From positions 1 through 37,269 of the forward strand of contig JACQWL010000590.1 in assembly GCA_016209255.1 (NCBI GenBank): a stretch of DNA of 37,269 bases, given 5' to 3'. Of this stretch, positions 452 to 26,691 are shown piece by piece. Numbering within the stretch: position 1 is the first letter of the stretch; each line of letters begins with the position of its first letter. Both the position numbers and the translations under genes were made by a program. This DNA is from Verrucomicrobiota bacterium (GTDB lineage: Bacteria > Verrucomicrobiota > Verrucomicrobiia > Opitutales > Opitutaceae). The notes beneath the pieces are model-generated. The model saw only the letters and a list, made by a program, of their open reading frames with translations, made no database searches and was not told the origin of the DNA.

Positions 452-468
452 CCAGCTTCCCGGCCATC

Positions 469-1368
469 ATGCTCGAAGGAATCTTTCCGGTCATTCCGAC
501 GCTCTTTACCGATCGCAATGCGCTCGATCTCGACGCGCAACGCCGCGTGATCCGCTTCGCCCTCAATGCCGGGGCCCATGGGCTGGTGTTTCCAGGCGTG
601 GCGAGCGAATACAGCCACCTCTCACTGCCCGAGCGCGAGCAACTGCTCGCGCTGGTGGCGGTGGAGGCGGCCGGCAGGGTGCCGCTGGTCGGGGGGGCGA
701 GCGCGACGACCGCGGCTGAGGTAATCGCCGCCGGCTCCATCGCAATGAAGCATGGCATCCGGCATCTCATGATCATGGCGCCGGTGGGACTGGGATCGGA
801 CGCTGCGGCGCATCGGGCTTTTTTTCAGCAAGTCGCCTCCGGATTGCCCGGAGCGGAGATCATCTTGCAAAACGCTCCGGTCCCGACTGGCGCGGGTTTG
901 GACCCGCAGGCAATTATAGCGATCGCGGCGGGCATCCCGGCCATCACCTATATCAAAGAGGAAACACTGCCTTCGGGTCCCGCCATCACGGTGATTCGCG
1001 AGGCAAGGATCCCGAGTCTGCAGGGCGTGTTTGGCGGCGGCGGTGCGCGTTATATCATCGATGAGCTCGATCGCGGCGCCTGCGGAGCGATGCCCGCAGT
1101 GGAGCTGACGGATCTGCATGTAGCGTTGTGGAGATCCTATGCAGCCGGTGATCAGGTGCAGGCGCGGCGGCTTTATCGGCTGAGCCTGCCGCTGCTGGTG
1201 GCACAGGCGATTTATCGCATGAGGCTGACCAAACATGTGCTCGCGAAACGCGGCATCGCCGATGCCCGTCACGTGCGCGCAACGTTGCCGGCGATGGATG
1301 CGTTTGCCCAGCGCGATGTGGACACGATGCTCGCGGACTTGCTGGCCGAATTTCCCGCGGAGAAATGA
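469..1368 (+). CDS. Dihydrodipicolinate synthase / N-acetylneuraminate lyase (DapA) family aldolase
   Basis: 299 aa; MLEGIFPVIPTLF start, Schiff-base Lys in AITYIKEE, overall DapA/NAL TIM-barrel pattern. Confidence 0.88.
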   Translation: MLEGIFPVIPTLFTDRNALDLDAQRRVIRFALNAGAHGLVFPGVASEYSHLSLPEREQLLALVAVEAAGRVPLVGGASATTAAEVIAAGSIAMKHGIRHLMIMAPVGLGSDAAAHRAFFQQVASGLPGAEIILQNAPVPTGAGLDPQAIIAIAAGIPAITYIKEETLPSGPAITVIREARIPSLQGVFGGGGARYIIDELDRGACGAMPAVELTDLHVALWRSYAAGDQVQARRLYRLSLPLLVAQAIYRMRLTKHVLAKRGIADARHVRATLPAMDAFAQRDVDTMLADLLAEFPAEK

Positions 1369-2612: not shown

Positions 2613-2616
2613 TGCC

Positions 2617-3874: not shown

Positions 3875-3890
3875 GGTGAACGAATTCACC
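3875..3890. promoter_or_regulatory. Candidate operator site 1, GGTGAACGAATTCACC
   Basis: Palindrome with 6-bp arms; same 16-mer pattern recurs at 15575 and 23520; 115 nt upstream of ATG 4006. Confidence 0.7.
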
Positions 3891-4005
3891 AAAATGAGAT
3901 TCGCCAGGCCATCGTTAGTTTCGTCCTGTGATCGCGGGCGAACCGGCGCCTTCGGTCGTCTGGGCCGCACCGGTTGCCTTAACCCCCGCCGTTTCCTCCA
4001 CCCTC

Positions 4006-4797
4006 ATGAAAACCGTTGCGCGTTGGCTAGGCTCTACCGCCCTCTCCGGGCTTGTGTCGTCGGTCACCCTCCTGGCGGCAGGCCCCGGCGCGCCACGCGA
4101 CGATCTTGTTTGGCTCAAGTCCCAGGGCACGCTGTTGTTTGAGGACTCGTTTGAGCGCGAAGAGACCGGCACTGGCCTGAAAGACATTGGCAACGGCTGG
4201 GAAAATGCCACCGCCGATCGGGCCAAGGGCATCAAACAGGCCGACTTGGATCAGGGCATCCTCAAGGTCAACTCCGCCACCAAGGAGGCCGGACACATGT
4301 CCCACATTCACCACGACGCGGGTTTCCGGAACGGAGGCGTCTACCTTCGTTTCCGGTTCCCCGAGTCCGCCAAGGGCGTGCGCCTTCAAGTCGGGTTTGT
4401 GGATCGCGAAGTCAGTTCAAGCATTCACGCCGGGCACCTCTGCTACGCCTTTGTGTCCGAAGACTCCGTCCTCCTGAAGGACTCCGGCACCGGGTTCCAC
4501 AGCCTCGCGATCCAAAAGCGAATTGAGGAGGGCAAGAAGGCGAACAGCGGAAAAATGCCCGAGAAGATCGCAGCCTTCCTGAAGTCGAAGGAGGTGACCG
4601 TGCCGTGGAAGGGCGATCGGGAGTGGCATGACCTCGTGCTGGTCACCGACGGAGACGCGATGCGCCTCAGCATCGATGGAAAGCTCCTGAAGGAATTTCG
4701 CTCGGAGGGATTTGCCCACCCGGCGAAACGCTGGGTCAGTCTGCTCAGCGCGAACTCGTTCTGGGTGGATGACGTGAAAGTCTGGAAAGTTAATTGA
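4006..4797 (+). CDS. Secreted concanavalin-A-like/DUF1080-like protein of unknown function (paralog A)
   Basis: Signal peptide from internal ATG 4006 (MKTVARWLGSTALSGLVSSVTLLAAG); strongly similar to the product of 28693..29457 (GNGWE.ATADRA, KQADLDQGILK, HIHHDAGF, WHDL, MRLSIDG, SEGFAHP.KRW). Confidence 0.7.
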   Translation: MKTVARWLGSTALSGLVSSVTLLAAGPGAPRDDLVWLKSQGTLLFEDSFEREETGTGLKDIGNGWENATADRAKGIKQADLDQGILKVNSATKEAGHMSHIHHDAGFRNGGVYLRFRFPESAKGVRLQVGFVDREVSSSIHAGHLCYAFVSEDSVLLKDSGTGFHSLAIQKRIEEGKKANSGKMPEKIAAFLKSKEVTVPWKGDREWHDLVLVTDGDAMRLSIDGKLLKEFRSEGFAHPAKRWVSLLSANSFWVDDVKVWKVN

Positions 4798-4807
4798 AGC
4801 GGAACTG

Positions 4808-7531
4808 GTGTCCATGCTCCCGCGCCTGCCCCACAGACTTGTTCGCCTTGAGTTGCTGCTCTTCGCCGCAGGCGCGCCACTCGCCCGGTCCGCGCCAGCG
4901 CCGCATGCCGCAATGCCCGAACGCCACCGCGCGTTCCTGGAGCAGAACTGCCTTGGATGCCACGGGCCCGAGAAACAGAAAGGAAAGTTCCGGGTGGATG
5001 AGTTGCCCCTCACGATTTCCGATCTTCCCACGGCGGAACGCTGGCAGAAGGTGCTCAATGCGCTGAACGCGGGAGAGATGCCGCCCGAGGATGAGGCGCA
5101 ACCCGCGCCCGAATTGAAGGCGGACTTCCTGGAGGATCTGTCTCATGTGATGGTCGCCGCGCGCAAGCATCTCGGCGATCAGCAGGGCGTGATTACCCTT
5201 CGGCGGCTCAACCGGCGTGAGTATCGCAACACGCTGCGCGACCTCCTCGGAGTCGACGTGGACGTGAGCGCTCTGCCCTCGGATACGGGTGGCCCGGGCT
5301 TCGATACCGTCGGGGCCAACCTTTTTCTCACCGGCAATCAATTCGAACAATACGAGGCACTGGCGCGCGAAGCACTGGAGGACGCCTTCACCGCCGGCGC
5401 CGCCGCCCCGGTGGCGAAAAAATTCCGCTACGAAGCCGAGACGATTCATCCGACCTTCGTGAAACGAAATCGCGAGTCGCTGGACGCCATGGATCGGGCT
5501 AACCGTTGGATAAAAGCGGTGGATGACGCCGCTGCACTCCCCGAAAACGCCGCCCTCGTGGCGACGCTCCGCGAGATCGCCGCGACGGACGATGCCCTGC
5601 GTTACCACTGGAAGAAGATTCCCGGCGCTCCCAGCCCCATGACCTTCGGTTTCAATGAGACGGCGGAGGTGAACCCGGCCACGGTGTATTTGTTTCGCGA
5701 TCGCACGGGATTCATTCGCTACGACGAGTATTATCTGCGGCTGCCCCGTTTGGACCAGGGCTCCTACCTGACCGTGACCTCGGGCTATGGCGGAACCGGT
5801 TTTGCCGCGACCCAAGGTCTCTCGATTCCGCGGGATTTTCCGCCGGGTGACTACGTGGTCCGGATTCGCGCGGGCACTGCGCCGGGGACTCCCGCGGACC
5901 GTCGCTTTCTCGAGTTCGGACTGAAAGGGTTTGCCGGCGCAGGCACCCCCGCGCTCAGCACGCATCACATCACCGGCACGATCGAGTCCCCCGACGTGAT
6001 CGAAATCCCTTTCACCTTCAACCGTCAGAGTGCCGAACGGAATCATCGCAACCTTTTCATTCGCGAGCGGGGCCTGAACGACGGGGGCAAGGTGCAACGT
6101 CGAGTCCAGGAAGCCGTCGAACGCAACGGCTCCGGGCCCGAAGTCGCGATCTGGATCGACTGGATGGAGATCGAGCGAATCCCCGCCCCGCCGGGAACGA
6201 TGGCGCCCGGACTTCGTGCGCTGGACATCGGGTGGGACGACCGCGCCACCGGGATTCCGAAGGAAAAGCTCCGGATCGCACTCGAGAATTTTGCGCGGGA
6301 GGCCTACCGCGGAGTCCCGGCGCCCGACGGCCTGGTGGATCGCCTGGTGCGGATTTACGACTCCCACCAAGCGACGGGCGGCACGCATCGCGACGCGCTC
6401 AAGCAGGCCCTGGCGGCGGTGCTTTCCTCGCCCCGTTTCCTTTATCGCGCTGAACCCGATGCGAACACGGCCCATCGCCCGCTGGATGGCCTCGAACTGG
6501 CCACACGCCTCTCATATTTCCTCTGGGGCGCCCCGCCGGACGGCACCCTGCGCGACCTCGCGGACAGCGGGAAACTCCAGGAGCCGCAGGAACTCGCCGC
6601 CCAAACGGAACGGCTCCTCAGCCACCCTCGCTCGGCGCACTTCGTGCAACCCTTCCTGACCCAATGGCTGGCGCTGGATCGGCTCGATCTCTTTCAATTC
6701 AGCCGGAAGCTTTATCCCCGGTTCGATGATGCGGTGAAATCGGCGGCGCGGCAGGAGGTCTACGAAACGTTCGCCTCTTTGCTTTGCGAGAACGGCCGAC
6801 TGGGCGATCTGCTTAACGCCGATTACGTGGTGATCAACGCCCTCCTCGCCGATTATTACGGGATCCAGGGCGTGGCCGGGGACGCGTATCGCAAAGTAGC
6901 TTTGCCGGCTGGCTCTCCCCGCGGAGGGCTCCTGGGCATGGCGGCCATCCTGGCGATGGGCAGCAACGGCCAGCGCACAAACCCGGTCGAACGCGGCGCG
7001 TCGGTGCTGCGCAAACTGTTGCACGATCCCCCTCCGCCCGCGCCAGCGAATGTCCCCGAGATCGAGCGCCTTGCGGGCCAAGTGGTGACCACCCGCGAGC
7101 GCTTTCACGCCCACCAGTCGGACCCGCAGTGCGCGAGCTGCCACCGCAAGATCGACCCGATCGGATTTGGCTTGGAGAACTTCGATGCGATCGGCCAATG
7201 GCGCACCACCGACCGCTATGAAGCCCTCGACGAGTCCGGCGCGCCCGTGCCGCACGCGAGCAAGACGTGGATCATCGAGCCCAGCGGCGCCCTGCACCGG
7301 GGGCCCGCGTTCAGGGATTACTTCGCACTGCGGGAGCTCATCGCCGGAAAAAAGGAAGATTTCGCCAGAGGGTTCACCGTCGCACTGATCGAATACGCCC
7401 TCGGGCGCCCCTGCGGTTTTAGCGACGAGCCCCTGATCGCCGGCATCGTCGCGGAGGCCGGCGAGGACTCGTTCGCGACCCGCGCGTTCATGCACGCGTT
7501 GGTTCGCAGCAAAGAATTTCACTCCAAATAA
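4808..7531 (+). CDS. Planctomycete/verrucomicrobial-type cytochrome protein with DUF1587/DUF1592/DUF1588/DUF1585 domains
   Basis: 907 aa; N-terminal CLGCH heme motif, [21 protein letters not shown] (DUF1587), [25 protein letters not shown] (DUF1588), C-terminal [14 protein letters not shown] region (DUF1585). GTG start or ATG 4814. Confidence 0.9.
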
Positions 7532-7545
7532 AGCCCGCCCCCGCC

Positions 7546-8850
7546 ATGAACGCTCCCCTGAACCGCCGCCACTTCCTGCGCACCAGCACCGCCCTCATCG
7601 CACTGCCGATGCTCGAATCGTTCGGCTTTCGCCGATTCGCCTCGGCCGCGCCCGCGTCGACCCTCGCCGCGCGCCCCAAACGGATGATCTTTCTCGGGTT
7701 CGGCTGGGGCGTGACCCAGCAGTCGTGGTATCCGTCCATGCTCGAAAAGGGTCCCGATTACATCCTGCCCTCCGGCCTGGCACCCCTGGGCCGCCACAAG
7801 TCCGACTTCACGATCGTGCAGGGGCTCGTCAACAAGCACGTCTCCGGCGGCCATTCCGGCAGCACTTTCTGGCTCACGGGCGCAAACGAGTTCGGCGAAC
7901 CCGGACAAAGCTTTCACAACAGCATCTCGGCCGATCAGGTGGCAGCCGGGGCTCTGGGGAAGGAAACCCGCTTTGATTCGTTCATTATGGATTGCGGCGC
8001 GGCCACACAGCCGTCCGGTCATGGCCAAGGGCTCTCCCTCTCATGGGACTCCCGCGGCAAACCCATGTCCGGGCCGAGGACGCCGGTCGAGGCGTTTCAC
8101 CGCCTTTTTTCGCGGGACACCACGCCGCTGGACCAGCAGCAGGCCATGTTTCGCCAGCGGCGCAGCGTGCTGGATAACGCCCTCGAAAGCGCCCGGGAAT
8201 TGCAGCGCCAGCTCGGCAAGACCGACAACGCGAAACTGGATGAATATTTTCAAGGCATCCGCGATCTTGAGACCCGGTTGAGCCGCGACGAGCAATGGCT
8301 GGGCGTGCCGCAACCGACGCCGGACCTCGCCGAGCCGAAGTCCAGTCTGGCCGGTTACGAGGAAATCGAGTTGATGTATGACATCATGATCGCAGCCCTG
8401 CGAACCGACAGCACGCGGGTGCTGAGTTACCGGCAGCCGGTGACGACGCTGCTCGCCAGCCTCGATGTCCGCATCGACGCCCACACCATGAGTCATTACC
8501 CCGGCAAGGGCCCGGAGTATTTGGAAGCCTCCGAAAAGCGCGACCGCGCGCAAAGCGAGCTGCTCGCCGGCCTACTGGACAAACTCAAGGCGACCCGGGA
8601 GCCGGATGGCAGCACCCTCTTCGATCACACGACCGTCGTCTACGGGAGCAACATCAGGACCGGCCACAATCTCGACAACTGCCCCACGATCCTCGCCGGT
8701 CGCGGCGCCGGCATCCGGCTCGGACACAATCTGGTTGTGCCAAAGGACACGCCGCTCTGCAACGCGTGGCTGACGCTGCTGCGCGGATCGGGTGTCCCGG
8801 TTGAACGGCACGGGGACAGCAGCGGAGTCATCCCGCAACTACTCGCCTAA
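7546..8850 (+). CDS. DUF1552 domain-containing secreted protein
   Basis: 434 aa; Tat-like NRRHFLRTSTALIALPML, FLGFGWGVTQQSWYPS, LDYRIDAHTMSHYPGKG-like C-terminal region; next to a DUF1592-type gene, as usual for this family. Confidence 0.88.
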   Translation: MNAPLNRRHFLRTSTALIALPMLESFGFRRFASAAPASTLAARPKRMIFLGFGWGVTQQSWYPSMLEKGPDYILPSGLAPLGRHKSDFTIVQGLVNKHVSGGHSGSTFWLTGANEFGEPGQSFHNSISADQVAAGALGKETRFDSFIMDCGAATQPSGHGQGLSLSWDSRGKPMSGPRTPVEAFHRLFSRDTTPLDQQQAMFRQRRSVLDNALESARELQRQLGKTDNAKLDEYFQGIRDLETRLSRDEQWLGVPQPTPDLAEPKSSLAGYEEIELMYDIMIAALRTDSTRVLSYRQPVTTLLASLDVRIDAHTMSHYPGKGPEYLEASEKRDRAQSELLAGLLDKLKATREPDGSTLFDHTTVVYGSNIRTGHNLDNCPTILAGRGAGIRLGHNLVVPKDTPLCNAWLTLLRGSGVPVERHGDSSGVIPQLLA

Positions 8851-8861
8851 GCCACCCAAGC

Positions 8862-11162
8862 ATGATGCGCCACGTGATTCTTCTGGCCGCTGCAGAGGTA
8901 GCGGTGCGCGCCGGCCTGTCGGCGGCGGCCCCGCCAGTCCTGCACTACAACGCCCCCGCGGCGAACTGGAACGAGGCGCTGCCCGTCGGCAACGGGCGCC
9001 TCGGCGCGATGGTGTTCGGCACCGTCAACCGCGAGCACCTCTCGCTCAACGAGGACAGCATCTGGTCGGGCGAATACCACTACACCCCGAGCCCGCAAAT
9101 GCGTGAGGCGCTGCCGGAGGTGCGTCGGTTGCTGTTCGCGGGCGACTACGCCGCGGCCCACGCCCTCGCGGAGAAGACCTTCGCCTATCCCAACGACCCC
9201 CGCTACGGGCACTATCAACCGCTCGCGGATCTGTGGATTGATTTCCCCGCGTCGGTCGGCGTCGCGGCCGGCAATTACCGGCGTGAGCTCAACCTTGAAG
9301 AGGCGGTCGCCGAGACCCGCTTCACGCAGGACGGCGTGCAATTTACCCGCACGGTCTTCGCCAGCGCGCCGGCTGCGGTGCTGGTCGTGCGGCTTACCGC
9401 CAACAAGCCCGGCCGGATCACGTGCGCAGTGGAGCTGACGCGCGGCCGCGACGCGCTCGTTCAGGCCGAGGGGCCCGGCCGGATTGTGCTGACGGGCTCG
9501 ACGCCGTATGGCGGCGTGCGCTTCGCCACGGTGCTGGAGGCGCGCGCCGACGGCGGTCGCGTGCGCGTGAACGGATCGCGGCTGCAAGTCGAGGGGGCGG
9601 ATGCCGTGACGCTCGTCCTCGCCGCGCAGAGCACGCTTCGCCACCAAGATCCGCTCGCGATCGCGCGCGAGCAGGCTGCGCGGTCCGTCGCACAGCCATG
9701 GGAGGAACTGCGCGCCGCCCACGTGCGGGATTACCAGCCGCTCTACCGTCGCGTGACGCTCAGCCTCGGCCCGGACCCCATGGGGAGCGTGCGAACGGAC
9801 GAGCGTCTCGCGCGGGTGAAAGCCGGCGCCGGCGATCCCGCGCTGGCTGCGCTGTTTTTTCAATTCGGGCGCTATTTATTGATCAGCAGTTCACGTCCCG
9901 ACGCGCTGCCCGCCAACCTGCAGGGCATTTGGAACGACAGCTACAAACCGGCGTGGTTTTCCGACTACACGATCAACATCAACACGCAGATGAACTACTG
10001 GCCCGCCGAGCCAGCGAATCTCGCCGAGCTGACCGAGCCGCTGTTCGCTCTGATCGAAAAATTGCGGCCGGTGGGCCGCCAGGCGGCGCGTGATCGCTAT
10101 GGCTGCCGGGGCTGGGTGCTGAGCACGCGCACGGCACCGTGGGCGACCTCGGAACTGCGCGGGACCGCGTCGCTGCTGTTCAACGACGCCGCCGCTTGGC
10201 TCAGCTTGCACCTCTGGGATCACTATCTTTTCGCGCCCGACGGTGAGTTCCTCGCGAAGAGGGTTTATCCCGTGCTGAAAGAAAGCGCGGAATTTTATCT
10301 CGATTTCCTCGTGGCCGAGCCGAAGCACGGCTGGCTGGTCGCGGGTCCGGCCGGTTCCCCGGAGAACAAATTCAAGGCCCCAGACGGATCCAGCGGCGCG
10401 CTGACGATGGGGCCGACGATGAGCCAGCAGATCGTGCGCGAGCTGTTCACGGCGTGTCTCGTCGCCGGTGAGACCCTTGGCGCGGATGAACCGTTTCGCG
10501 CTGAGTTGAAGGCCCGCCTGGCGAAACTCGCCCCGATGCAAATCGGCCGGCATGGCCAGTTGCAGGAGTGGCTGGAAGATTTTGAAGAAGTCGAACCGCA
10601 GCACCGGCATGTTTCCCATCTCTTCGGGCTGCATCCCGGCACCCAGATTTCGCCCCGCCTTACGCCCGAACTCGCCGCGGCGGCCCGGCGCACGCTCGAG
10701 CGGCGGGGCGACGGCGGGACGGGCTGGAGCAAGGCGTGGAAAATCAATTTCTGGGCGCGGCTGCTCGATGGAGACCATGCGCACAAGATGCTGCACGAAC
10801 TGCTCGCGCAGAGCACGCTGCCGAATCTTTTCGACAATCATCCGCCGTTCCAAATCGACGGCAATTTCGGAGCCACCGCCGGCATCGCGGAGATGCTGCT
10901 ACAGAGTCATCTCGGCGAACTGCACCTGCTGCCGGCACTGCCGTCAGCGTGGCCGACCGGGTCCGTAACGGGGCTCCGTGCTCGCGGGGGCTTCACCGTC
11001 GATCTCGCCTGGAGCGATGGAAAACTGACGCGGGCCACCGTGCGCGCGACCGCCGCGTCCCGCGCAACCCTGCGCTGGGGTGAGCGCACGCGCGTCCTTG
11101 AGTTCGAGCGCGGCGGCGCCAAGACCATCGAGGCGGATTTCTTCACCGCACCCGCTCCGTGA
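8862..11162 (+). CDS. Glycoside hydrolase family 95 (alpha-L-fucosidase / alpha-L-galactosidase type)
   Basis: 766 aa; NEALPVGNGRLGAMVFG, LSLNEDSIWSG, NINTQMNYWPAEPANL (catalytic Asn region), QIDGNFGATAGIAEMLLQSH (catalytic Asp region). Confidence 0.93.
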   Translation: MMRHVILLAAAEVAVRAGLSAAAPPVLHYNAPAANWNEALPVGNGRLGAMVFGTVNREHLSLNEDSIWSGEYHYTPSPQMREALPEVRRLLFAGDYAAAHALAEKTFAYPNDPRYGHYQPLADLWIDFPASVGVAAGNYRRELNLEEAVAETRFTQDGVQFTRTVFASAPAAVLVVRLTANKPGRITCAVELTRGRDALVQAEGPGRIVLTGSTPYGGVRFATVLEARADGGRVRVNGSRLQVEGADAVTLVLAAQSTLRHQDPLAIAREQAARSVAQPWEELRAAHVRDYQPLYRRVTLSLGPDPMGSVRTDERLARVKAGAGDPALAALFFQFGRYLLISSSRPDALPANLQGIWNDSYKPAWFSDYTININTQMNYWPAEPANLAELTEPLFALIEKLRPVGRQAARDRYGCRGWVLSTRTAPWATSELRGTASLLFNDAAAWLSLHLWDHYLFAPDGEFLAKRVYPVLKESAEFYLDFLVAEPKHGWLVAGPAGSPENKFKAPDGSSGALTMGPTMSQQIVRELFTACLVAGETLGADEPFRAELKARLAKLAPMQIGRHGQLQEWLEDFEEVEPQHRHVSHLFGLHPGTQISPRLTPELAAAARRTLERRGDGGTGWSKAWKINFWARLLDGDHAHKMLHELLAQSTLPNLFDNHPPFQIDGNFGATAGIAEMLLQSHLGELHLLPALPSAWPTGSVTGLRARGGFTVDLAWSDGKLTRATVRATAASRATLRWGERTRVLEFERGGAKTIEADFFTAPAP

Positions 11163-12691
11163 AGCCGCCGCGTCGTCTCCTTGCTTTCGTCCTCCCGATG
11201 GTCGGGTGGATCGCGCTCTACAGTTCACCGGCGCAAGAGGCGCGTGAGCGCACGGTGCGACTCCCGGATTCGGATGCCAATTGGAAGCGGGCGCGGCTCT
11301 ACGTGGAGGAGACGCCGGATGCGGATTACCGGCATGCTTCGGCCGCGGCCCATGAAGCGTTTCGTGATCTGAAGTTCGGCGTGCGCGTTCATTGGGGACT
11401 CTACTCGATCGGCGGGCGGCCGGCCGAATCGTGGCCGTTTCTCTCCATGTCGAACGAGGAGCGGCAGCGCTATCAGCAGCTCTACCGGACGTGGAATCCT
11501 TCCCGCTTTAATGCCGAGGAATGGGTGGCGCTTTTCGAGCGAGCGGGAGCGCGGTGTTTCGCGTTCACGGCGAAACACCACGAGGGATTCTCCATGTTCG
11601 ACACGCAGACCCGCGTGCGCCGCCGCGTAAACTGGACCGCCGCCGGAGGCCCCGCGATCGAGGAATGCGATCTGGCCTACAGCATCGCCGAGACTCCGTT
11701 CCGGCGCGACGTGGTGCGGGAACTGGCGGACGCGTCCCATCGCCACGGCCTCAAGATCGATCTCTATTTTTCCCACCCCGATTGGTATGACGCGGATTTC
11801 CGGCCGTGGGGGTTTCATCCCCTGCAACGGCCGGGCGCCCCGGATGCGGAGGCCGTTGCGAAACGCCAAGGCCGGCCGTTGGCGTTCGCCACCGAACCCA
11901 CGGACGCGGAGGAGGGCAGGATGCTGGCGCGGCACCGCGACCAGTTGCGCGAGCTGCTGACCAACTACGGCACCATCGACATGGTGTGCCTGGACATCAG
12001 TCTCGGCGCCAGAGTCTGGCCCCAACTCAAGGCCACGCTGAAGGAACTGCGGGCCCTTCAACCCGACGTGATGTTCCGCGCGCGCGGCATCGGCAACTAT
12101 GGCGACTATTACACTCCGGAGGGATTTGTGCCGGGTTCCAAGGAACCCACCGCAATGCCGTGGATGGTCATCTCGGCGCTCGGGCGCTCGTTTTCCTACG
12201 AGCCCGAGGCCACCAAATACAAAGGCGCCCAGTGGATCGTGCGGAACCTGATTGAGACCGTCGCGAAGGGCGGAAATTTCATGGTCGGGGTCGGTCCGGA
12301 TGCCACTGGCAGCTTTCATCCCGCCGCCGCGGCGCAGCTGGAGCAAACCGGTGCGTGGCTGCGCACCAACGCCGAAGGCATCTACGCCACACGCCCCAGG
12401 GATGGCGACGACTGGCGCGAGGGAGATAATATCCGCTTCACCCGCTCAAAGGACGCAAAAATTGTTTACGCGTTTGCGCAGGCGTGGCCCGGCGACGAGC
12501 TGACGCTTCGCACCGTGCGCACTCGGGCCGGCTCGACGGTGCGACTGCTGGGATATCCCCCGGCCCTCGCGTGGCGCCACGACGCCGAACGCGGTTTGAT
12601 CGTCGCGCTGCCGCGTGAACTGCAGGAGACGGCGCAACGCCCGTCGCCCTTCGCCCACACTTTCCGGATCGAAGTCGATTCGTCACCCTGA
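11159..12691 (+). CDS. Glycoside hydrolase family 29 alpha-L-fucosidase
   Basis: 510 aa; FGVRVHWGLYSIGG, AKHHEGFSMFDT, IDLYFSHPDWY, GTIDMVCLDIS (candidate nucleophile Asp), NLIETVAKGGNFMVGVGPDATG. GTG start overlaps the GH95 stop. Confidence 0.92.
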   Translation: MKPPRRLLAFVLPMVGWIALYSSPAQEARERTVRLPDSDANWKRARLYVEETPDADYRHASAAAHEAFRDLKFGVRVHWGLYSIGGRPAESWPFLSMSNEERQRYQQLYRTWNPSRFNAEEWVALFERAGARCFAFTAKHHEGFSMFDTQTRVRRRVNWTAAGGPAIEECDLAYSIAETPFRRDVVRELADASHRHGLKIDLYFSHPDWYDADFRPWGFHPLQRPGAPDAEAVAKRQGRPLAFATEPTDAEEGRMLARHRDQLRELLTNYGTIDMVCLDISLGARVWPQLKATLKELRALQPDVMFRARGIGNYGDYYTPEGFVPGSKEPTAMPWMVISALGRSFSYEPEATKYKGAQWIVRNLIETVAKGGNFMVGVGPDATGSFHPAAAAQLEQTGAWLRTNAEGIYATRPRDGDDWREGDNIRFTRSKDAKIVYAFAQAWPGDELTLRTVRTRAGSTVRLLGYPPALAWRHDAERGLIVALPRELQETAQRPSPFAHTFRIEVDSSP

Positions 12692-12734
12692 CGCGCGGCG
12701 CTGGCCGCCACCCTCCGATCAAAGCATACTCCTC

Positions 12735-14777: not shown

Positions 14778-14802
14778 GTCGCAATCACCGCTTCACTCCA
14801 CG

Positions 14803-15540
14803 ATGAAAATTCAAAACTGCCTGTTGCTCGGCGTGCTCGTCGGACTGATCGCCAATGGCACATCGGCCCAGAATCAACCGCCGCCACCGCCCGCGGCAAA
14901 AGTCGATCCAGCGTATGCGCCCGTCGCTGACGATCCCAAACTGCCGCGCGTGCTGCTCATCGGCGACTCGGTCTCGGTCGGCTACACCCTTGCGCTGCGC
15001 AAAGAACTGGCCGGCACGGCCAACCTCCATCGCCCGCCGGCCAATTGCGGGTCGACGAAAACCGGCCTGCGCGACCTGGACAAATGGCTGGGCGAGGGCA
15101 GGTGGGATGTCATCCACTTCAACTGGGGCCTCCACGATCTCGGCTATCGCTTCACCGAAGACTCGAACCGGGACGCCAACGGAACCTACGCGCGCCCCGA
15201 CAACGGCGGCCACCAGCACGTGCCGCCGGCCGAGTATGAAAAGAACCTCCGTGCACTCGTCTACCGTCTGAAGCGGACCGGCGCGAAACTCATCTTTGCA
15301 ACCACCACACCAGTGCCGGCTGACCTGAACGCATACGTCAAGGCGTCGGAACTGCCCTACAACGAGGTCGCGAAAAAAGTCATGCGCGAAGAGGGAGTGA
15401 CGACGAACGATCTGTGGGCGTTCGCCACGCCGCAACTCGGCCAGATCCAGCAAGGCGGCAACCCGCACTTCACGGCCAAAGGGTCGGCGGCATTGGCCCG
15501 TGAAGTGGCGCGGGCGATCACGGCGGCCCTCGCAAATTAG
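14803..15540 (+). CDS. SGNH/GDSL-family hydrolase (possible carbohydrate esterase)
   Basis: 245 aa; VLLIGDSVSVGY (block I), IHFNWGLHDL, GGNPHFTAKGSAALA (His block); signal peptide. Confidence 0.82.
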   Translation: MKIQNCLLLGVLVGLIANGTSAQNQPPPPPAAKVDPAYAPVADDPKLPRVLLIGDSVSVGYTLALRKELAGTANLHRPPANCGSTKTGLRDLDKWLGEGRWDVIHFNWGLHDLGYRFTEDSNRDANGTYARPDNGGHQHVPPAEYEKNLRALVYRLKRTGAKLIFATTTPVPADLNAYVKASELPYNEVAKKVMREEGVTTNDLWAFATPQLGQIQQGGNPHFTAKGSAALAREVARAITAALAN

Positions 15541-15543
15541 GCA

Positions 15544-15561
15544 CAAAGGACCGCTCCTTTG
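15544..15561 (+). other. Inverted repeat / possible terminator-like hairpin CAAAGGA-CCGC-TCCTTTG
   Basis: Perfect 7-bp arms and 4-nt loop, directly after the SGNH stop codon (15538-15540), upstream of operator site 2. Confidence 0.45.
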
Positions 15562-15574
15562 CATGGCGCCGTTT

Positions 15575-15590
15575 GGTGAACGTGTTCACT
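15575..15590. promoter_or_regulatory. Candidate operator site 2, GGTGAACGTGTTCACT
   Basis: GTGAAC-GT-GTTCAC palindrome; same pattern as 3875 and 23520; 114 nt upstream of ATG 15705. Confidence 0.72.
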
Positions 15591-15678
15591 AACGAGTTCG
15601 TTGCATGTATTGCCCGGAGACTACTTTTCTCATGCCGCCTCGGGTCCGTTGTGGACCTCACGTTCGCCGTGCCCTTTA

Positions 15679-15695
15679 AAAGAATCGTATTCTTT
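15679..15695 (+). promoter_or_regulatory. AT-rich inverted repeat AAAGAAT-CGT-ATTCTTT next to the TBDR1 start codon
   Basis: Perfect 7-bp arms with 3-nt loop, ending 9 nt before ATG 15705. Confidence 0.5.
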
Positions 15696-15704
15696 ACCAA
15701 GCCC

Positions 15705-18650
15705 ATGAAATCAGTGTCCCATCACCGTAGCGTTTGCTGGCACTCTGCCATCTCGGTCGCCGCCGCCCTCGCCCTCGCCAACGTCATGCCGGCCCAAACC
15801 GTCGCGACCGTGCCGCCCGCCACGTCCGCCAAATCCAGCGACGTGGTCCAATTGTCGCCCTTCGAAGTCATCAGCGACGCCACCGACACCTACGAGGCCA
15901 CCAACACCGCATCGCTCACCGGCATGAGCACGTCGCTGAACAAGGCGCCGCTTGATGCGCGCATCCTCAACCGCACCCTCATATCCGAACTCGGCGGTGG
16001 CGATGTCTTCAAGATGCTGTCGGACTTCGGCGGACTCGGGGCGATGTTGTTCGGCGGCGGCAACGAGGACCAACGCGGGATGCAGGACGGCGATCAGGCG
16101 CAGCCCGGCGGCCTTAGCAGCCGCGGTTTCACGATCAGTGAGCCGCGCCGCGATGGTTTTCTGCGATCATCGACGTCGATGTTTAACTCGTTTGACGTGG
16201 AGAGCGCGGAGGCGATCAACGGCTCCAATAATCTACTTTACGGATCGGGTGAAGCGGGCGGAGTCGTGGTGATCAACTCCAAGCGCGCCCGGGTGAAGCA
16301 GAATTCCTTCAAGTTCAGCGCCATGATGGATTCCGAGGGGACCCAGCGCTACACCGTCGATCTCAACGCGGGAACCCCGCGCTTTGGGATCAGGGTCAAC
16401 GGACTGAAGAGCCAGGACAAGTATTGGCGTCCCATCCTCAGCCTCGACCAGGAGGGGCTGCAAACGGCCGTGACGCTGCGGCCCTATCGTTGGCTGAACG
16501 TGTTTGCCGACTACCGGCACTACCAAAGGGCGGCAGTGCATTCCCGGGAAGCCACGATTCGCGCCCCGACAAATCTGCTGCTCACCACCGGTGAGCGTCT
16601 CGACAACCAGCCCTCGCGCTACATCACGGGGGTCGGTGGTTCCGCACTGACAAACAACTTCGTCACGATGACCACGGACTCTTCGCTGATCGGCGCGCTG
16701 CCCCGGCAGCATTGGGTTAATGAATCCAAGTCGATCACCGTCGATGTCACTCCCAGGCCAGATCTCGCGTTCCAATTTCGATATGGGCATGATGACCGCG
16801 TCAATAACGGCATCAATGCCTCGAGCACGACCGTTTATCACCCGGATTCACCGTTGAACTTGTTCGTCGACAGCACCGGTGCACCAAAACGCGAATGGGC
16901 GATCTTTGCGGCGCCAAACGTCGGGCCGTTCTGGACTGGCGCACATGGCTACAAGTTCACCGCCGTTGGCTCGCGGAATCTCGGCCGGTGGGGCGATCAC
17001 AAACTGAGCGGATTCTATTCGAATCAGGAATCGTGGTCGAACCGGCAGGAGTATCGTTACTACGAGGTCGATGCCACCGGGAACACGATTCAGAACATGG
17101 CAAACATCACGAATGGTGATTCTGGGCGGAATCTGATGCCCGCTGCGTGGATGCCGGCTTTTTCCCCCACGCTCTTCGGCGGCATTCCCTGGCCGACCAC
17201 CGATCTCGTTCATCCGAACAGCGGCAAACGATATCGGCTCCATCCAATGGTTTACGCCGGCGCGGTGCCGGCCACCGCCGCGAACCCGATGGGTATGTCC
17301 GGCCCCATCAATACGACCGCCACCACGCTGCCGATCGGCGCACCCAGCTCGACGATTTACACGCTCGATGACACGAGCGAGAAAAGCACCGGCTTCAGCC
17401 TGGCGAGTTCCTTTTGGAAAGGCCGAATCGATACGATGGTTGGCCTCCGCACCGAGACCGCCGACACCATCCGCGTGACGACGCTCGTGCAGCGGGGCCC
17501 GATCAGCTACGACAGCCGCACCTACGGCATGGTCGTCGATACGCCCGTGCCCGGCATCCGCGCCTACGGCAGCTACTCGACCAATTCGAAAATCAACTTC
17601 GCGACCGACCGCGACGTCTTCAACAACATCCTGCCGCTCGGCCAGGGCAACACGCGCGAGGGCGGCCTCAAGCTCTCCCTGTGGGACCACCGCGTGTCAG
17701 GCAATATCACTTACTACATCACGGAAGCCGAGAACTTCACCGCGGGGCTCGGGACGGTGCGCAACGACGTCGATCCCGACGGCATTAACGGCCGCAACGG
17801 CGGCGGCAGCTTCGTGTTCAACAAAGTGTCGGACGGTCTCAGCGCGAGCCTTTCGGCGCGGCCGCTCAAGCCCTGGCAGGTCACGGTCAGTTTCACGCAG
17901 TCGAACGGGTCGGAGCGCAGCAACATCAGTCTGCCCGTTTTCTACAACGACGAGTTCAACACGACGACCGTCAACGGCCAACAGGTCGTAGCGATCAAGA
18001 GCGGCACCGGCACGTTCACGCCGCTCTTGGTGCCGAGCGATCCCGCCAATCCAGCGTCGGCGCAGATTCCGCTTTCGATCGCGATGATGAAGGATTCAAC
18101 CAGCCCGTATTTCGCGACGCTCGATCCGGATTCCGGCCAGATCGTCAACGCCCAAAACCTTGGCCTGCGCACCACCGGCGTCGGCACGCTGCGCACGGGC
18201 CAGCCCATTGCGGGCCACCAACTCGGCTTCGTGCCGCCCGTGAATCCAATCATCGTGCGCAAGGCGGGCGAACCCACGACAGGTTACGCCGAAAACTCCT
18301 TCAGCTTTATCAACCGCTTCCAAGTGAGCGAAGGCCGCCTGCGCGGCCTCGTGCTGGGACTGGCAACCGTTTATCAAGTCGGTTTCCGCGCCTATGCCTA
18401 TACCGACGCCGCCGACGGCGGAAAGCGAAAGATCTATTACTATCCCGACAAGTTCGAGAACAACGCCTTCATGGTCTACAATTTTCGCCCGACGAAGCGC
18501 GTGCAGGCATCGGTGCAGCTCAACGTCTCCAATCTCTTCGACAAGCAAGAGGTGTTGAAGCTGCTGCGCAACACAAACGGCACGGTGCGCTACTTCACCT
18601 ATCAATATAACCCGCGAAATATTGCGCTCACCATGAACCTCACGTTTTGA
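15705..18650 (+). CDS. TonB-dependent receptor (paralog 1)
   Basis: Signal peptide from ATG 15705; DVVQLSPFEVISDATDTYEATNTASLTGMSTSLNKAPLDARILNRTLISELGGG plug region; C-terminal NVSNLFDKQEVLKLL...NPRNIALTMNLTF. Confidence 0.92.
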   Translation: MKSVSHHRSVCWHSAISVAAALALANVMPAQTVATVPPATSAKSSDVVQLSPFEVISDATDTYEATNTASLTGMSTSLNKAPLDARILNRTLISELGGGDVFKMLSDFGGLGAMLFGGGNEDQRGMQDGDQAQPGGLSSRGFTISEPRRDGFLRSSTSMFNSFDVESAEAINGSNNLLYGSGEAGGVVVINSKRARVKQNSFKFSAMMDSEGTQRYTVDLNAGTPRFGIRVNGLKSQDKYWRPILSLDQEGLQTAVTLRPYRWLNVFADYRHYQRAAVHSREATIRAPTNLLLTTGERLDNQPSRYITGVGGSALTNNFVTMTTDSSLIGALPRQHWVNESKSITVDVTPRPDLAFQFRYGHDDRVNNGINASSTTVYHPDSPLNLFVDSTGAPKREWAIFAAPNVGPFWTGAHGYKFTAVGSRNLGRWGDHKLSGFYSNQESWSNRQEYRYYEVDATGNTIQNMANITNGDSGRNLMPAAWMPAFSPTLFGGIPWPTTDLVHPNSGKRYRLHPMVYAGAVPATAANPMGMSGPINTTATTLPIGAPSSTIYTLDDTSEKSTGFSLASSFWKGRIDTMVGLRTETADTIRVTTLVQRGPISYDSRTYGMVVDTPVPGIRAYGSYSTNSKINFATDRDVFNNILPLGQGNTREGGLKLSLWDHRVSGNITYYITEAENFTAGLGTVRNDVDPDGINGRNGGGSFVFNKVSDGLSASLSARPLKPWQVTVSFTQSNGSERSNISLPVFYNDEFNTTTVNGQQVVAIKSGTGTFTPLLVPSDPANPASAQIPLSIAMMKDSTSPYFATLDPDSGQIVNAQNLGLRTTGVGTLRTGQPIAGHQLGFVPPVNPIIVRKAGEPTTGYAENSFSFINRFQVSEGRLRGLVLGLATVYQVGFRAYAYTDAADGGKRKIYYYPDKFENNAFMVYNFRPTKRVQASVQLNVSNLFDKQEVLKLLRNTNGTVRYFTYQYNPRNIALTMNLTF

Positions 18651-19501
18651 ATCGGGACGCACCCAACCGCCCTCGCCCGTCGCGGCCCCGTCCAATTGCG
18701 AAACGCGTCGTTACATCGTGGCTGCTTTGCGCAGGCTCCGCCCTGTCCGCGGCCGGGCCTGTCGCCACATCCTCCCCACCCATCCCGCGCGAGGGGCTCG
18801 CGCTCTGGCTGGCCGCCGAGGACGTGGTGCTTGAGCAGGGACGCGTCGCCGCGATCCGGGACCGCAGCGGCCACCACAACGATGCCGTCCGGCAGCTGGA
18901 TGCCAGGATCGCCGCGGGCAATCCCACCGTCGTCACCCACGAGGCCGCCGGGTTGCCCGTGCTGCGTTTCAACGGGGCCTTCGTGGGTTACGAGTTCAAA
19001 CCCATCGCCAACATCCGGACCGCGTTCTGCGTCGTCTCCAAACATCCGGCCGCCTTCAAGCAGTTTGCGGAGCGTTTCGTGCTCGGTGGCCGCCGCAAGC
19101 CGGACGTCGATTTTCACGTCGGCGCCCACTGGACCGACACCATCATCGAACTCGGGATGTTCAAGCACGGGAAGGTGTGGTTCAACGGCCTGCCCTGCGA
19201 TCCCGCGCTCAGCGAATTCGCCCCGAAGCTGGCGGTGATCTCCTACGCGGCCGGCCGCGATGTGCTGGCTGAGCAGCTCGCCCGCGACCGCGACTTCATC
19301 GATCGCAGCTGGTGGGGCGACATCGCGGAGGTCATCCTTTACACGGCGCCCCTGGCTGATCCCGACCGCCGCACTGTGGAGGACTACCTGATGCGCAAAT
19401 ATTCCATCACGCCCTTTCCGCCCGTCGTTGTCAGCCGCGAGTCGGTGATGCCGGGCCACACCAAGCCGCCCGCTGACGTCTCGCCAAGGACAAAAAAATG
19501 A
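18647..19501 (+). CDS. LamG/concanavalin-A-like domain secreted protein
   Basis: GLALWLAAEDVVLEQGRVAAIRDRSGHHNDA, LPVLRFNG, WWGDIAEVILYTAPLADPDRRTVEDYLMRKYSI; TTG start overlapping the TBDR1 stop is assumed. Confidence 0.7.
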   Translation: MNRDAPNRPRPSRPRPIAKRVVTSWLLCAGSALSAAGPVATSSPPIPREGLALWLAAEDVVLEQGRVAAIRDRSGHHNDAVRQLDARIAAGNPTVVTHEAAGLPVLRFNGAFVGYEFKPIANIRTAFCVVSKHPAAFKQFAERFVLGGRRKPDVDFHVGAHWTDTIIELGMFKHGKVWFNGLPCDPALSEFAPKLAVISYAAGRDVLAEQLARDRDFIDRSWWGDIAEVILYTAPLADPDRRTVEDYLMRKYSITPFPPVVVSRESVMPGHTKPPADVSPRTKK

Positions 19502-20862
19502 AAGCAGCCTGCGCGAGCACCCGGAAGAGCAGGCGGTCGTTTCTCAAGCTGCTGACGGCTTCCTCGACCGTCATTGTCTTCCCCTCCATTGTCCGGGCTC
19601 AGACGCTCGGGCTCGGCGGCGGGATTGCTCCCAGGAACCGCGTCGCCATCGGCAGCCTCGGGGTCGGCCTGCAGGGCACCGGTCTGCTGAACAATCTGTT
19701 CAACCGGCCCAGTGCGTAGGTCGTCGCGGTGTGCGACGTCGACCGCGCCCACCGGCAGGTCGCCCGCAGGTTAGTCGAGGACACCTACGCCACACAGGCC
19801 GGCGCCGCTCTCTATCGCGGCTGTGCCGAATATAACAACTTGGAGGAAATTCTCGTCCGCTCGGATATCGACGCGGTGGTCGTCGCCACGCCGAACCACT
19901 GGCACGCCCTCGCCACCGTGCTTGCGGCGCAGGCCGGCAAGCACATTTACTGTGAAAAACCCGCCGCGACCAGCATCCCCGAGGGGAGGGCCATGGTCGA
20001 AGCCGTGCGTCGCGCCGGCGTGGTCTGCCAGATTGGCAGCCAGCAGCGCTCGTGGCCCTCTTACCAGCACGGCATCGACCTCATCCGCAACGGCTACCTG
20101 GGGACAATATCCCGCGTGCGGGTCCACATGCCCGGAGGCTACAACACGACTCACTCTACCCCAGTCCCCACGGGGCCGGAAACCATTCCGGACGGCTTCG
20201 ATTACGACCGCTGGCTTGGACCGATCGCGGAGCTGCCCTACCGCGCCGCCCGTTGCCATTACAACTGGCGGTTTTCCTTTGAAACCTCCGGGGGCGACAT
20301 GGAGGACTGGGTGGGCCACAACTACGACTCCATGACTGTGGCGCTGGGCCTCACCGCCACCCAGCCAGTGGCCATCCGGAAGGCTTCAGCGACGTTCATC
20401 ACAAACCACCCCATCTACAACACCGCCGCCAGCCTCGAGTTCGAGGCCGTCTATCCGAACGGCACCGTCGTCGAGTGCAGCAACCGCTTCCGCGAAATCC
20501 GCATCGAGGGCACGGAAGGATGGGTGGAAATGTCACGGGGCGGCAACACCTACAGCAGCAAGGCGCTCCAGCAGGTGGTGATTCCGCCGAACCGCCAGAT
20601 TCTGGGCGCGGGCAACAAGCTGCCTGCCCACTACGAGCACATGGAAAACTTCCTGACCTGCGTGCGCAGCGGAGCCCGCCCGCGTTGCCCCATCGACGAG
20701 GCCCACAACAGCGCCGCCGTGTGCCACCTCGCCAACGCCGCGTTCCGCAGCGGGTGCAAGGAGTTCGCTTGGGACCCGTTCTCTGAGACTGTGATCGACG
20801 CCCCCGCGGTGGGCCGCCTTCTCACCCGCACGTTTCGCAGCCCTTGGACGTTGCCCACCTGA
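19498..20862 (+). pseudogene. Gfo/Idh/MocA family oxidoreductase with Tat signal, interrupted by in-frame TAG at 19717-19719
   Basis: Same frame on both sides of the TAG: RRSFLKLLTASSTVIVFPSIVRAQ...VAIGSLGVGLQGTGLLNNLFNRPSA-*-VVAVCDVDRAHRQ...VVVATPNHWHALATVLAAQAGKHIYCEKPAA...GGDMEDWVGHN. Confidence 0.88.
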
Positions 20863-20870
20863 CTGATCCC

Positions 20871-21412
20871 GTGGAGAAGGTCAGATGCCCATCCCGAAGC
20901 CGGCTGCTCGCAGCCGCGGTCTGGTTGTTCGCCGGCACCCGTCTCGCCACCGCCGGGGGCGAACCCGCCGGACTCTGGCAGGGCCGGCGCGAAGACTGGC
21001 AGATGATCACGACGGAGACGCGCGTCATCGAGACCGACCACCGCTTTGGTTCCGCGGAGCTCTGGCGCTGGAGATTCAACGATGCCAGGCGCCCCAAGCC
21101 GCCGATCGTCGCGCCCAAGCTCTGGACCGATCTGGCCGCCACCGCCAGACCTCCCGACGGCGCCATCGTGCTCTTTGCGGGCACGAACACCGATGCCTGG
21201 CAGTCGCCGGCAGGGAGGATCGAGGACGGCTGTCTCGTCGCCGACCGCCGGAACGGAGATCTCGTTTCCAAGGAAGACTTCGGTTCCTGCCAGCTTCATG
21301 TTGAATGGCTGGCGCCATCCGGTGCCGATGAACCGAACAAGGGCAGGCCCCGGAGCGAGAGCAGCGGCATCCTGCTCATGAGCACCTACGAGGTCCATGT
21401 TCCTGAAAGCGT
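20871..21412 (+). pseudogene. DUF1080 / 3-keto-disaccharide hydrolase family domain, truncated by internal deletion and frameshift
   Basis: GAIVLFAGTNTDAWQSPAGRIEDGCLVADRRNGDLVSKEDFGSCQLHVEWLAPSG...SSGILLMSTYEVHV matches the first half of DUF1080; the C-terminal AYAAHPDRLPLRIRMRHAQVRFRNIWVEPL resumes in another frame directly afterwards. Confidence 0.75.
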
Positions 21413-21466
21413 CCGGGCCGCCGCGCCTACGCCGCCCATCCCGACCGGCTTCCGCTCCGGATCCGG

Positions 21467-23458
21467 ATGCGTCATGCGCAGGTACGCTTCCGCAACATCT
21501 GGGTCGAGCCACTGGTCGACCATCCGCCCGTGATCGCGGCGGCATCCGGCGAAGTTTCGCCTTCCGTCGCGCACGTTCCCCGGCTGCACGCCGCCACAGC
21601 CGAGCGAGACCGCTCCGATCCGGACGCCCTGTTGGCAGGCTTTGCCGGATACGACGACGGCCAGCCGATGGCTGCCCTGGTTCGCATCGAGCAGTTCCTG
21701 CGCAGCGAGAGCCCCCCGGGACGGGCGGCCTTCGAACCCAAGCTCGTCGCCCTCCTCGAGGAGCCCGCGATCACGCCCGCCGCCCGCCGCATCCTTGCCG
21801 GCTGGCTCCGCTGGGTGGGCTCGGCCCGCGCCGTGCCCGCGCTGGAGCGGCTCGCCGCCAGCACGGAACTGGCCGCTTCCACGTCCATCGCGGCGCTGGC
21901 CGACATTCCCGACCCTTCCGCCGAGACCGCGCTGCTCCGGCTCCTTGCCACGGCGCCCGAATCCAGCCGCGTAACCGTCATCAACGCCCTAGGCCAGCGC
22001 CGCGCCGCCGCCGCCCTGGCACCGCTGGGCCGCACCGCCGACTCGGCGAACCCGGCGCTTGCCACGGCCGCACTCGAAGCGCTGGTCCGGCTTCGCACCA
22101 CGGAATCCTTCTCGACCCTCGAAAAACTTTATGCAGCGAATCCCGGTTCACAGCCCCGCGGCCGCGCGCTGCTTGAAGCCGCCGGGGAACGCCTCCGCCA
22201 GCCGCCCGCCCAGGTGATCGCACCGGCTCGGGCACAGGCGCTTGCCGCGATCGCGGCCGTGCTGGACTCGTCGGCAGCCACACCGCTCCGCACCGAAGCC
22301 GCGGGCATCCTGATTGCCGCCGATCCCGCCCGGGCCGGAGAACGCCTCATCCCACTCTTGAACGGCGGCGACGTCAGCTTGGCCCGGCATATCGCCCGGC
22401 AGTTGGTGCTGAGCGGCCAGCCGCACGATCTTTCCACCCTGCTGATGGGCTTTGCCCGCCTGCCTGTTCCGATCCAGCAGGCACTCGCCGACGCAGCCGG
22501 CGCCCGCGCCAAACCGGACGCGCTGCCCCTTGCCCGCGCGGCCTTCGGTTCCACCGATTCAGCCGTGCGTGCGACCGCGGCCCTGGCCGTCGGACGGTGC
22601 GGCGATGAAAGCGCCGTCGCCTGGCTCGTTCCGCTGCTCACGGCCGATCCGGCGCTCGCCAGCTCGGGCCGGCAGGCCCTCGGGCTGCTGCCGTCCGGCC
22701 CGACCGACGAACGGCTGCGTGACGAGTTCCACGCCGCGGCCGAGCCCGCAATGCGCGCCAGCCTGCTGGGGGTGCTGGCCGACCGCCAAGATTACACCGT
22801 GTGGCCGCTCGCCGCGGCGCTGTGCGCGGCGTCCGACGCACGGCTGCGTTTCGCAGCCCTCGACGCCGTGGTCCGGCTGGCGCGACCCGGCAATTTTGCC
22901 GGGCTCCTCGCCCTGCGAGCCCGCCTGCGGCCGGACGACGATCTCCGCGGCTGGAGCCAGGCAGTCGTCGCCACCGCCGCCAGCGACCCCCGGCCTGACG
23001 ACTGTGTCCTGGTGATACAGCGGGCCCTGGCCGAGCCCGGGGCCGAGCGCCAAGTCCTCCTCGGTGCCCTCGCCTCCCTGCGCTGCGACCAGGCCGCCGT
23101 GGTCCTGCGGGGCCTCCTGTTCTCCACCGATCCCGCGGTGCGCCAGGAGACGATCCGGGTGCTCGCGGCTTTTCGGGGTGACACCGCCTTTGTGCTGCTC
23201 CGGGAGGCGGCGCAACGTGCGTCGGAGTCCGATGAACGCATCCTGTCCTTTCGTGGATTCCTTCATCTCATTGCCGCCTCGCGCCAGGGCGAGCCGCCCG
23301 CACCACTGTCGTCCGTGCTCGAGCACTACCGCGTGGCCTGGTCGCTCGCCCTCCGCCCGGAGGACAAAGCGGCCGTCCTAGCGGCACTGCGGCCGATCAA
23401 GAGCAAACCCGCTCAGGAGTTACTGAACGAGTTGGCCGCCACCGCGACCCAGCCGTAG
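21467..23458 (+). CDS. HEAT-repeat protein; 5' end is the residual C-terminus of the upstream DUF1080 domain
   Basis: Many ~30-aa helical repeats (e.g. AVRATAALAVGRCGDESAVAWLVPLL, AVRQETIRVLAAFRGDTAFVLLREA); begins MRHAQVRFRNIWVEPL, a DUF1080 C-terminal strand. Confidence 0.7.
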   Translation: MRHAQVRFRNIWVEPLVDHPPVIAAASGEVSPSVAHVPRLHAATAERDRSDPDALLAGFAGYDDGQPMAALVRIEQFLRSESPPGRAAFEPKLVALLEEPAITPAARRILAGWLRWVGSARAVPALERLAASTELAASTSIAALADIPDPSAETALLRLLATAPESSRVTVINALGQRRAAAALAPLGRTADSANPALATAALEALVRLRTTESFSTLEKLYAANPGSQPRGRALLEAAGERLRQPPAQVIAPARAQALAAIAAVLDSSAATPLRTEAAGILIAADPARAGERLIPLLNGGDVSLARHIARQLVLSGQPHDLSTLLMGFARLPVPIQQALADAAGARAKPDALPLARAAFGSTDSAVRATAALAVGRCGDESAVAWLVPLLTADPALASSGRQALGLLPSGPTDERLRDEFHAAAEPAMRASLLGVLADRQDYTVWPLAAALCAASDARLRFAALDAVVRLARPGNFAGLLALRARLRPDDDLRGWSQAVVATAASDPRPDDCVLVIQRALAEPGAERQVLLGALASLRCDQAAVVLRGLLFSTDPAVRQETIRVLAAFRGDTAFVLLREAAQRASESDERILSFRGFLHLIAASRQGEPPAPLSSVLEHYRVAWSLALRPEDKAAVLAALRPIKSKPAQELLNELAATATQP

Positions 23459-23519
23459 CGGATGGAGACCCGGCCGCATGCAGCGCCGCCGCCTCTTCCC
23501 GCCGGGAGAATCGACCTTT

Positions 23520-23535
23520 GGTGAACGAGTTCACC
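23520..23535. promoter_or_regulatory. Candidate operator site 3, GGTGAACGAGTTCACC
   Basis: Perfect GGTGAAC-GA-GTTCACC palindrome (7-bp arms); same pattern as 3875 and 15575; 109 nt upstream of ATG 23645. Confidence 0.75.
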
Positions 23536-23644
23536 ATACGGACCCTTGCCAGCCTGCGCGCTGGATTTCCTGCTGGCTCCACGTTGAACCCATCAAGGGA
23601 CACGCCGGACCCCCGGCCTAGATCTGTCAACCCACCCCGAATCC

Positions 23645-26593: not shown

Positions 26594-26663
26594 GCGCACC
26601 CCGGAGCCCCGAGTCCCGGCTGGCAGATCACTGTCCGCGCAATCGCAACCGCGTCGCGCCTCT

Positions 26664-26691
26664 GCCCCCGCCGCTCCGCGGCTGCGGGGGC
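26664..26691 (+). other. Strong GC-rich intergenic stem-loop
   Basis: GCCCCCGC...GCGGGGGC perfect 8-bp arms with additional inner pairing; in the 164-nt gap between TBDR2 and the next gene; no T-tract. Confidence 0.6.

Follow-up and report, generated by a model that had tools for sequence, protein, structure and literature searches.

Candidate LacI-Family Operators in TonB-Receptor Glycan Loci of an Opitutaceae Genome and Its Relatives

Introduction

Polysaccharide utilisation loci of Bacteroidetes are controlled by hybrid two-component systems, by SusR or by anti-sigma systems. Little has been published on how TonB-receptor glycan loci are regulated in Verrucomicrobiota, and Verrucomicrobia are absent from the main text of the LacI/GalR regulon survey (Ravcheev et al. 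2014, PMC4052901). In that survey most known sites lie 30–140 nt before start codons, and CG occupies the exact center of nearly all even palindromes (1173 of 1251), with 78 regulators listed that lack it (PMC4052901). Sites of the LacI-family protein CcpA that lie upstream of the −35 element activate as a rule, lev being a known exception, and those in the promoter are linked to repression (PMC3463425). No account of the regulon analysed below was found in the open-access literature searched, which also yielded no usable work on LacI regulons of Verrucomicrobia or on promoter maps of Akkermansia.

How does an Opitutaceae locus of this sort compare with these systems? In the window (the whole 37,269-nt stretch of DNA analysed here) an initial annotation had noted three copies of a 16-bp palindrome and proposed them as a locus-wide operator. 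This proposal is borne out: they appear to be the sites of a LacI-type regulator and extend to other contigs of the same genome and to its relatives.

Genomes and Searches

The window belongs to a 6.78-Mb MAG of 647 contigs that is 85% complete with 4.6% contamination, and this genome was scanned by pattern matching. Relatives were taken from a set of 189 genomes (G numbers) and from another set, of named GTDB genomes, which comprises MAGs of Opitutaceae and of other Opitutae and in part contains the same genomes; individual loci carry L numbers. The operator matrix was trained on the lacI-proximal operators of 15 other genomes, the genome of the window contributing nothing to it.

Results

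Gene Units and Palindromes of the Window

The window's genes, as classified by Pfam, form units that all lie on the + strand. Positions 103–3765 hold the end of a TonB receptor gene followed by DHDPS-family, MFS and MR/MLE genes, whose orthologs in relatives are 74–92% identical and whose own operator would be placed beyond the contig start. Unit 1 (4006–15540) encodes a 263-aa protein, a PSD/PSCyt cytochrome protein, an HXXSHH protein, GH95, GH29 and GH2 proteins and a GDSL esterase. The TBDR1 unit (15705–23458) encodes a TonB receptor, a 284-aa protein, an interrupted Gfo/Idh protein, a 3-keto-disaccharide hydrolase and a HEAT protein, and the TBDR2 unit (23645–34843) a TonB receptor, two proteins without a Pfam match, a ThuA/GDSL/HEAT/cupredoxin protein and a ThuA protein. 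The Gfo/Idh gene (19498–20862) has an in-frame TAG at 19717–19719 (codon 74) in an otherwise intact frame, which is either a genuine nonsense mutation or an assembly error. By resemblance, fucose (or L-galactose) residues are suggested by GH95 and GH29, and sugar-acid catabolism by the DHDPS, MFS and MR/MLE genes; because of these glycosidases and the aldonate-type genes, we would guess at a deoxy-sugar or a sugar acid as the ligand.

The palindromes have the even, 16-bp form GGTGAA-N4-TTCACC, all on the + strand. Operator 1 (GGTGAACGAATTCACC, 3875–3890) precedes unit 1 by 115 nt (ATG 4006), operator 2 (GGTGAACGTGTTCACT, 15575–15590) precedes TBDR1 by 114 nt (ATG 15705), and operator 3 (GGTGAACGAGTTCACC, 23520–23535) precedes TBDR2 by 109 nt (ATG 23645). 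These coordinates and distances agree to the base with the initial annotation, as do the pentamers found exactly 12 nt 3′ of operators 1, 2 and 3 (GCCAG, GCATG and GCCAG, respectively), and the window indeed contains no further full palindrome match. Operator 2 is one mismatch from GGTGAANNNNTTCACC because of its terminal T. With the matrix built from other genomes the three operators take the first three ranks in the window (28.5, 24.9 and 21.6 bits; operator 3 is first and operator 1 second), the next unrelated match scores 14.0 bits, and 0.01 hits are expected per window.

As in LacI-family operators, the palindrome is even, within 16–22 bp and close to a start codon. The central CG that had been claimed for it does not hold up: the conserved CG (C7 G8, in 26 of 27 operators) is off center, in the gene-distal half, the center being between positions 8 and 9, so the typical LacI-family central CG is missing. 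This does not exclude the LacI family, since 78 regulators without a central CG are listed in the survey (above).

Sites Elsewhere in the Genome and the Candidate Regulator on Contig C5

Exact GGTGAANNNNTTCACC occurs at just three places in the 6.78-Mb genome, window positions 3875 and 23520 and C39:3174, the last of which also precedes a TonB receptor gene; when one mismatch is allowed there are 59 places, compared with 7 for the reversed-pattern control. The core GTGAACGNNTTCAC has nine exact matches: the three window operators and one each on C5, C39, C98, C265, C502 and C637. The C265 and C637 matches are without TTG at +11 (below) and were not taken as sites. Outside the window the targets in this genome are the C39 receptor, an F5/8-type-C protein on C98 (71% to the corresponding target in G023) and a FAD oxidoreductase on C502 (72% to that in G008), where TTT replaces TTG.

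The C5 site identifies a candidate regulator. The initial annotation had observed that the regulator is not in the window and had advised looking for further sites beside a LacI- or GntR-family gene; a LacI-family gene lies on this separate short contig (C5:3946–4974, minus strand), and the same operator, at C5:4975, directly abuts its start codon. It is the only one of the genome's seven LacI helix-turn-helix genes with an operator in front. Its product, P0001, has an N-terminal LacI helix-turn-helix above the cut-off (PF00356, E 3e-13, 56 bits) and the invariant hinge leucine L61; its sensor domain has no Pfam match by sequence. The structure model (pLDDT 78) matches RbsR, CcpA and LacI, the closest solved structures, over full length with E down to 3.7e-13, with TM-scores of just 0.4–0.5 and a poorly modelled hinge. 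The conserved-Leu hinge and the periplasmic-binding-protein-like fold of the predicted sensor place P0001 in the LacI/GalR family. Residues 174–182 of the sensor part form an invariant histidine-rich ELHHxGHxH motif, a possible metal or ligand site.

Of the two operator types first suggested, LacI or GntR, the former therefore stands; no GntR-type regulator is linked to the sites. The linked gene is of LacI type, which rules out GntR membership for the assigned regulator. We regard it as very probable that the window palindromes are operators, with motif GGTGAACGNNTTCACY, of the LacI-family regulator P0001.

C5 also carries (308–2755; L044) a TrwC-type relaxase/helicase gene, so lacI may have a mobile element integrated next to it in this genome. 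The contig could in principle be foreign; its G+C of 0.65 matches that of the genome. For a join of C5 to the start of the window's contig, which would give the relatives' order of lacI, receptor and DHDPS, a contig with the missing N-terminal piece of the receptor was looked for and not found.

Regulator and Operator in Relatives

Across the 189 relatives, operator matches lie a few bases 5′ of P0001 orthologs specifically. The named GTDB set contains 29 orthologs of at least 54% identity. In 27 of these the start codon, ATG or GTG, follows the operator directly, and in the other two (L262 and L294) an operator abutting the lacI start was not seen. Most paralogs at 50–53% identity carry the different palindrome TTTGAAACCCTTCAAT instead, so the operator would seem to go with the type of protein. 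In one paralogous LacI group (L276–L289 and L295) the conserved TTTGAAACCCTTCAAT is followed by TTGC at a fixed +9 offset, about 60 nt before the LacI gene itself, and these sites may form another operator family that is similarly arranged.

In seven relatives (G003, G010, G015, G016, G091, G114 and G024) the lacI ortholog adjoins, mostly divergently, a DHDPS/MFS/MR/MLE operon whose genes are orthologs of those at window positions 103–3765 (DHDPS 74–85%, MFS 87–92% and MR/MLE 79–81%), and a TBDR1-like receptor gene is usually present in it; by this synteny in relatives the regulator belongs to the window locus. In some relatives the interval from lacI to the receptor gene holds two operators, ~70–190 bp from each other.

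The Predicted Regulon

An operator with TTG was found in all 17 genomes that have a close ortholog of P0001 (57 matches) and in 25 of the 172 others (29 matches), for which Fisher's test gives 4e-13 when relatedness is ignored, the orthologs being concentrated in one genus. G023 has six such elements on one strand within 57 kb, and G086 has four within ~60 kb of one contig. The genes directly downstream encode TonB receptors of the TBDR1/TBDR2 and C39 types, GH16/LamG proteins, MFS permeases, FAD oxidoreductases (PF12831), F5/8-type-C proteins and a ThuA/GDSL/HEAT protein. A ~816-aa family without a Pfam match is a repeated target in three genomes (L200:2128–4575, L204:942–3398 and L213:1072–3519) and is a candidate for an unknown carbohydrate-active protein.

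Most TBDR2-family receptor genes in ortholog-bearing genomes have an operator, and those of G009, G012, G017 and G020, which lack a close ortholog, have none. G026, G001 and G014 have operators, and a close ortholog was not found in them, which may reflect gaps in the MAGs or regulators that are more distant. No operator lies within 1.5 kb of the unit-1 cytochrome orthologs of G015 and G016 (72–73%), and unit 1 is therefore not under conserved control there. Overall, the two outcomes that had been named as contradicting a regulatory element, sites scattered at random inside genes and palindromes not conserved at orthologous loci, were not what the scans returned.

Position of the Operator Relative to Predicted Promoters

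Counting from the operator toward the target gene, positions +11 to +13 read TTG in 26 of 27 target promoters, the sole exception being operator 1 (TCG). In GTDB loci that were not chosen for TTG it is at +11 in 36 of 43 sites, and at any other offset in at most 3 of the 43. A T at +39, the last base of a −10 element if the spacer is 17 nt, is present in 19 of the 27 promoters and in 16 of 27 held-out ones. A 16S search across many MAGs yielded only three rRNA promoters of relatives, which in our alignment by eye (n = 3) read TTGAC-N17-NNNNNT; TTG is taken as the −35 element because these are of the same form, and TTG-N17-T looks like the lineage's ordinary promoter.

By the fixed +11 offset, the predicted −35 elements in the window are TCGCCA (3901–3906, + strand) for unit 1, with TCG for TTG, TTGCAT (15601–15606, +) for TBDR1 and TTGCCA (23546–23551, +) for TBDR2. 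With the 17-nt spacer and T at +39, the predicted −10 of unit 1 is TCCTGT (3924–3929, +; start ~3936) and that of TBDR2 is CCTGCT (23569–23574, +; start ~23581); the operator 2 promoter has no T at +39. The spacing of the GCCAG reported after operators 1 and 3 is thus real, and GCCAG is part of the −35 region (TTGCCAG) rather than an extra operator element. A poor −10 was dropped as proof of activator dependence, as the relatives' rRNA promoters themselves keep little beyond the last T of the −10 (a weak comparison at n = 3).

At targets the operator is thus predicted at about −61 to −46, centered near −53.5 and a fixed 10 nt upstream of the −35, and at none of them does it reach into the predicted −35, −10 or start. 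G006 and G008 have one fully symmetric operator, GGTGAACGCGTTCACC, shared between divergent FAD-oxidoreductase and TBDR1-like genes, with TTG at +11 on both sides.

Promoter overlap occurs at the regulator's own gene only. There TTG precedes the operator by 20–21 nt in 22 of 27 cases, which puts the predicted −10 (TGAAAT or TGAACT) within the operator and the predicted transcription start at most ~3 nt from the start codon. The lacI message is probably leaderless or nearly so, and no Shine-Dalgarno sequence can precede its start codon because the operator fills that place.

Discussion

Activation or Repression of the Targets

In this genome, as in 27 of 29 relatives at or above 54% identity, the operator abuts the regulator's own gene, a position that agrees with the autoregulation usual for LacI-family proteins. 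A P0001 dimer bound there would cover the −10 and repress its own gene. At the targets a dimer near −53.5 would leave the promoter free and could touch RNA polymerase, and with a sugar-derived ligand present P0001 would activate, coupling outer-membrane uptake, fucosidases and sugar-acid catabolism. The operator-to-TTG spacing is fixed to the base over dozens of promoters in which the spacer sequence is not conserved, which suggests contact with RNA polymerase, and activation is favored because CcpA sites upstream of −35 usually activate. Taken as a whole, this model of operator and C5 regulator, with lacI autorepression and activation of the targets, seems to us probable.

The substrate-induced repression first proposed for the locus is possible and not favored in that form, as an operator 10 nt upstream of the −35 is off the promoter. 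It would have the same regulator act as a classical repressor that, when free of ligand, blocks the targets from −53.5 until substrate releases it, by polymerase contact, exclusion of another activator or looping between sites. Most LacI-family members are repressors (PMC4052901), repression is to be expected at lacI, whose promoter the operator overlaps, upstream contact sites can also repress, and the paired operators between lacI and the receptor gene in some relatives (above) would permit looping. At targets, however, the sites are clear of the predicted −35, −10 and start, those in the window are 8–12 kb apart, and a blocking or looping repressor needs no base-fixed spacing to the −35, yet dozens of promoters have it. 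We therefore hold classical repression to be a serious but doubtful alternative to activation.

Could the operator belong to another regulator of the genome, with the C5 LacI gene a bystander or a contaminant? The MAG is fragmented, 85% complete and 4.6% contaminated, and C5 also bears the relaxase gene; against this, C5 has the same G+C as the genome, the other six LacI genes have no operator, and in nearly all relatives the operator abuts the orthologous lacI start between lacI and the same operon, which makes such an arrangement very improbable. Least credible, indeed barely conceivable, is chance likeness or functionless shared descent of duplicated receptor promoters: as TBDR1 (15705–18650) and TBDR2 (23645–26593) are 71% identical paralogs in one locus, operators 2 and 3 may not be of independent origin, but operator and TTG have stayed unchanged where the flanks and the 10-nt spacer have diverged, the element also precedes unrelated genes (GH16, MFS, FAD oxidoreductase and F5/8C), and a matrix from other genomes ranks the window operators first to third.

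Returning to activation by P0001, we give about even chances to a broader proposal, that an Opitutaceae LacI subfamily consists of true activators that act on TonB-receptor, glycosidase and sugar-acid operons from a base-exact operator at −53.5, made directional by its off-center CG, and repress themselves at a leaderless lacI, the TTTGAAACCCTTCAAT paralogs having a similar layout. The fixed geometry offers a clean test of LacI-type proteins as dedicated activators outside Firmicutes and enterics. Motif, regulator, promoter geometry and targets can be named from sequence across ~30 uncultured Opitutaceae. Loci that respond together can be predicted from the motif, which may also serve to mark degradation genes not yet recognised, the 816-aa family among them.

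Comparison with Known Systems

The locus resembles the SusCD-type polysaccharide utilisation loci of Bacteroidetes in having TonB receptors and glycosidases under one control, and differs in that no SusD was found by Pfam among the annotated genes. With the local LacI/GalR regulons (PMC4052901) it shares an even 16-bp palindrome, sites 109–115 nt before starts, autoregulation and sugar catabolic targets; unlike theirs, its CG is one step off center and one-sided. Bacillus subtilis CcpA (ackA, pta and ilvB cre sites; PMC3463425) is likewise a LacI-family protein with sites upstream of −35, but it is a global regulator that works with HPr-Ser-P, its spacing is not one fixed value and cre has a central CG. 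Cra/FruR and the predicted PckR (PMC4052901) are, similarly, LacI-family dual regulators whose mode was predicted from site position, but they govern central metabolism through another motif, whereas the targets here are TonB-receptor glycan loci. For the LacI family, then, there is nothing out of the ordinary in autoregulation, in the length of the palindrome or in its distance from start codons; an off-center CG and a constant position upstream are less common, and the palindromes would define a new regulon of a kind already known.
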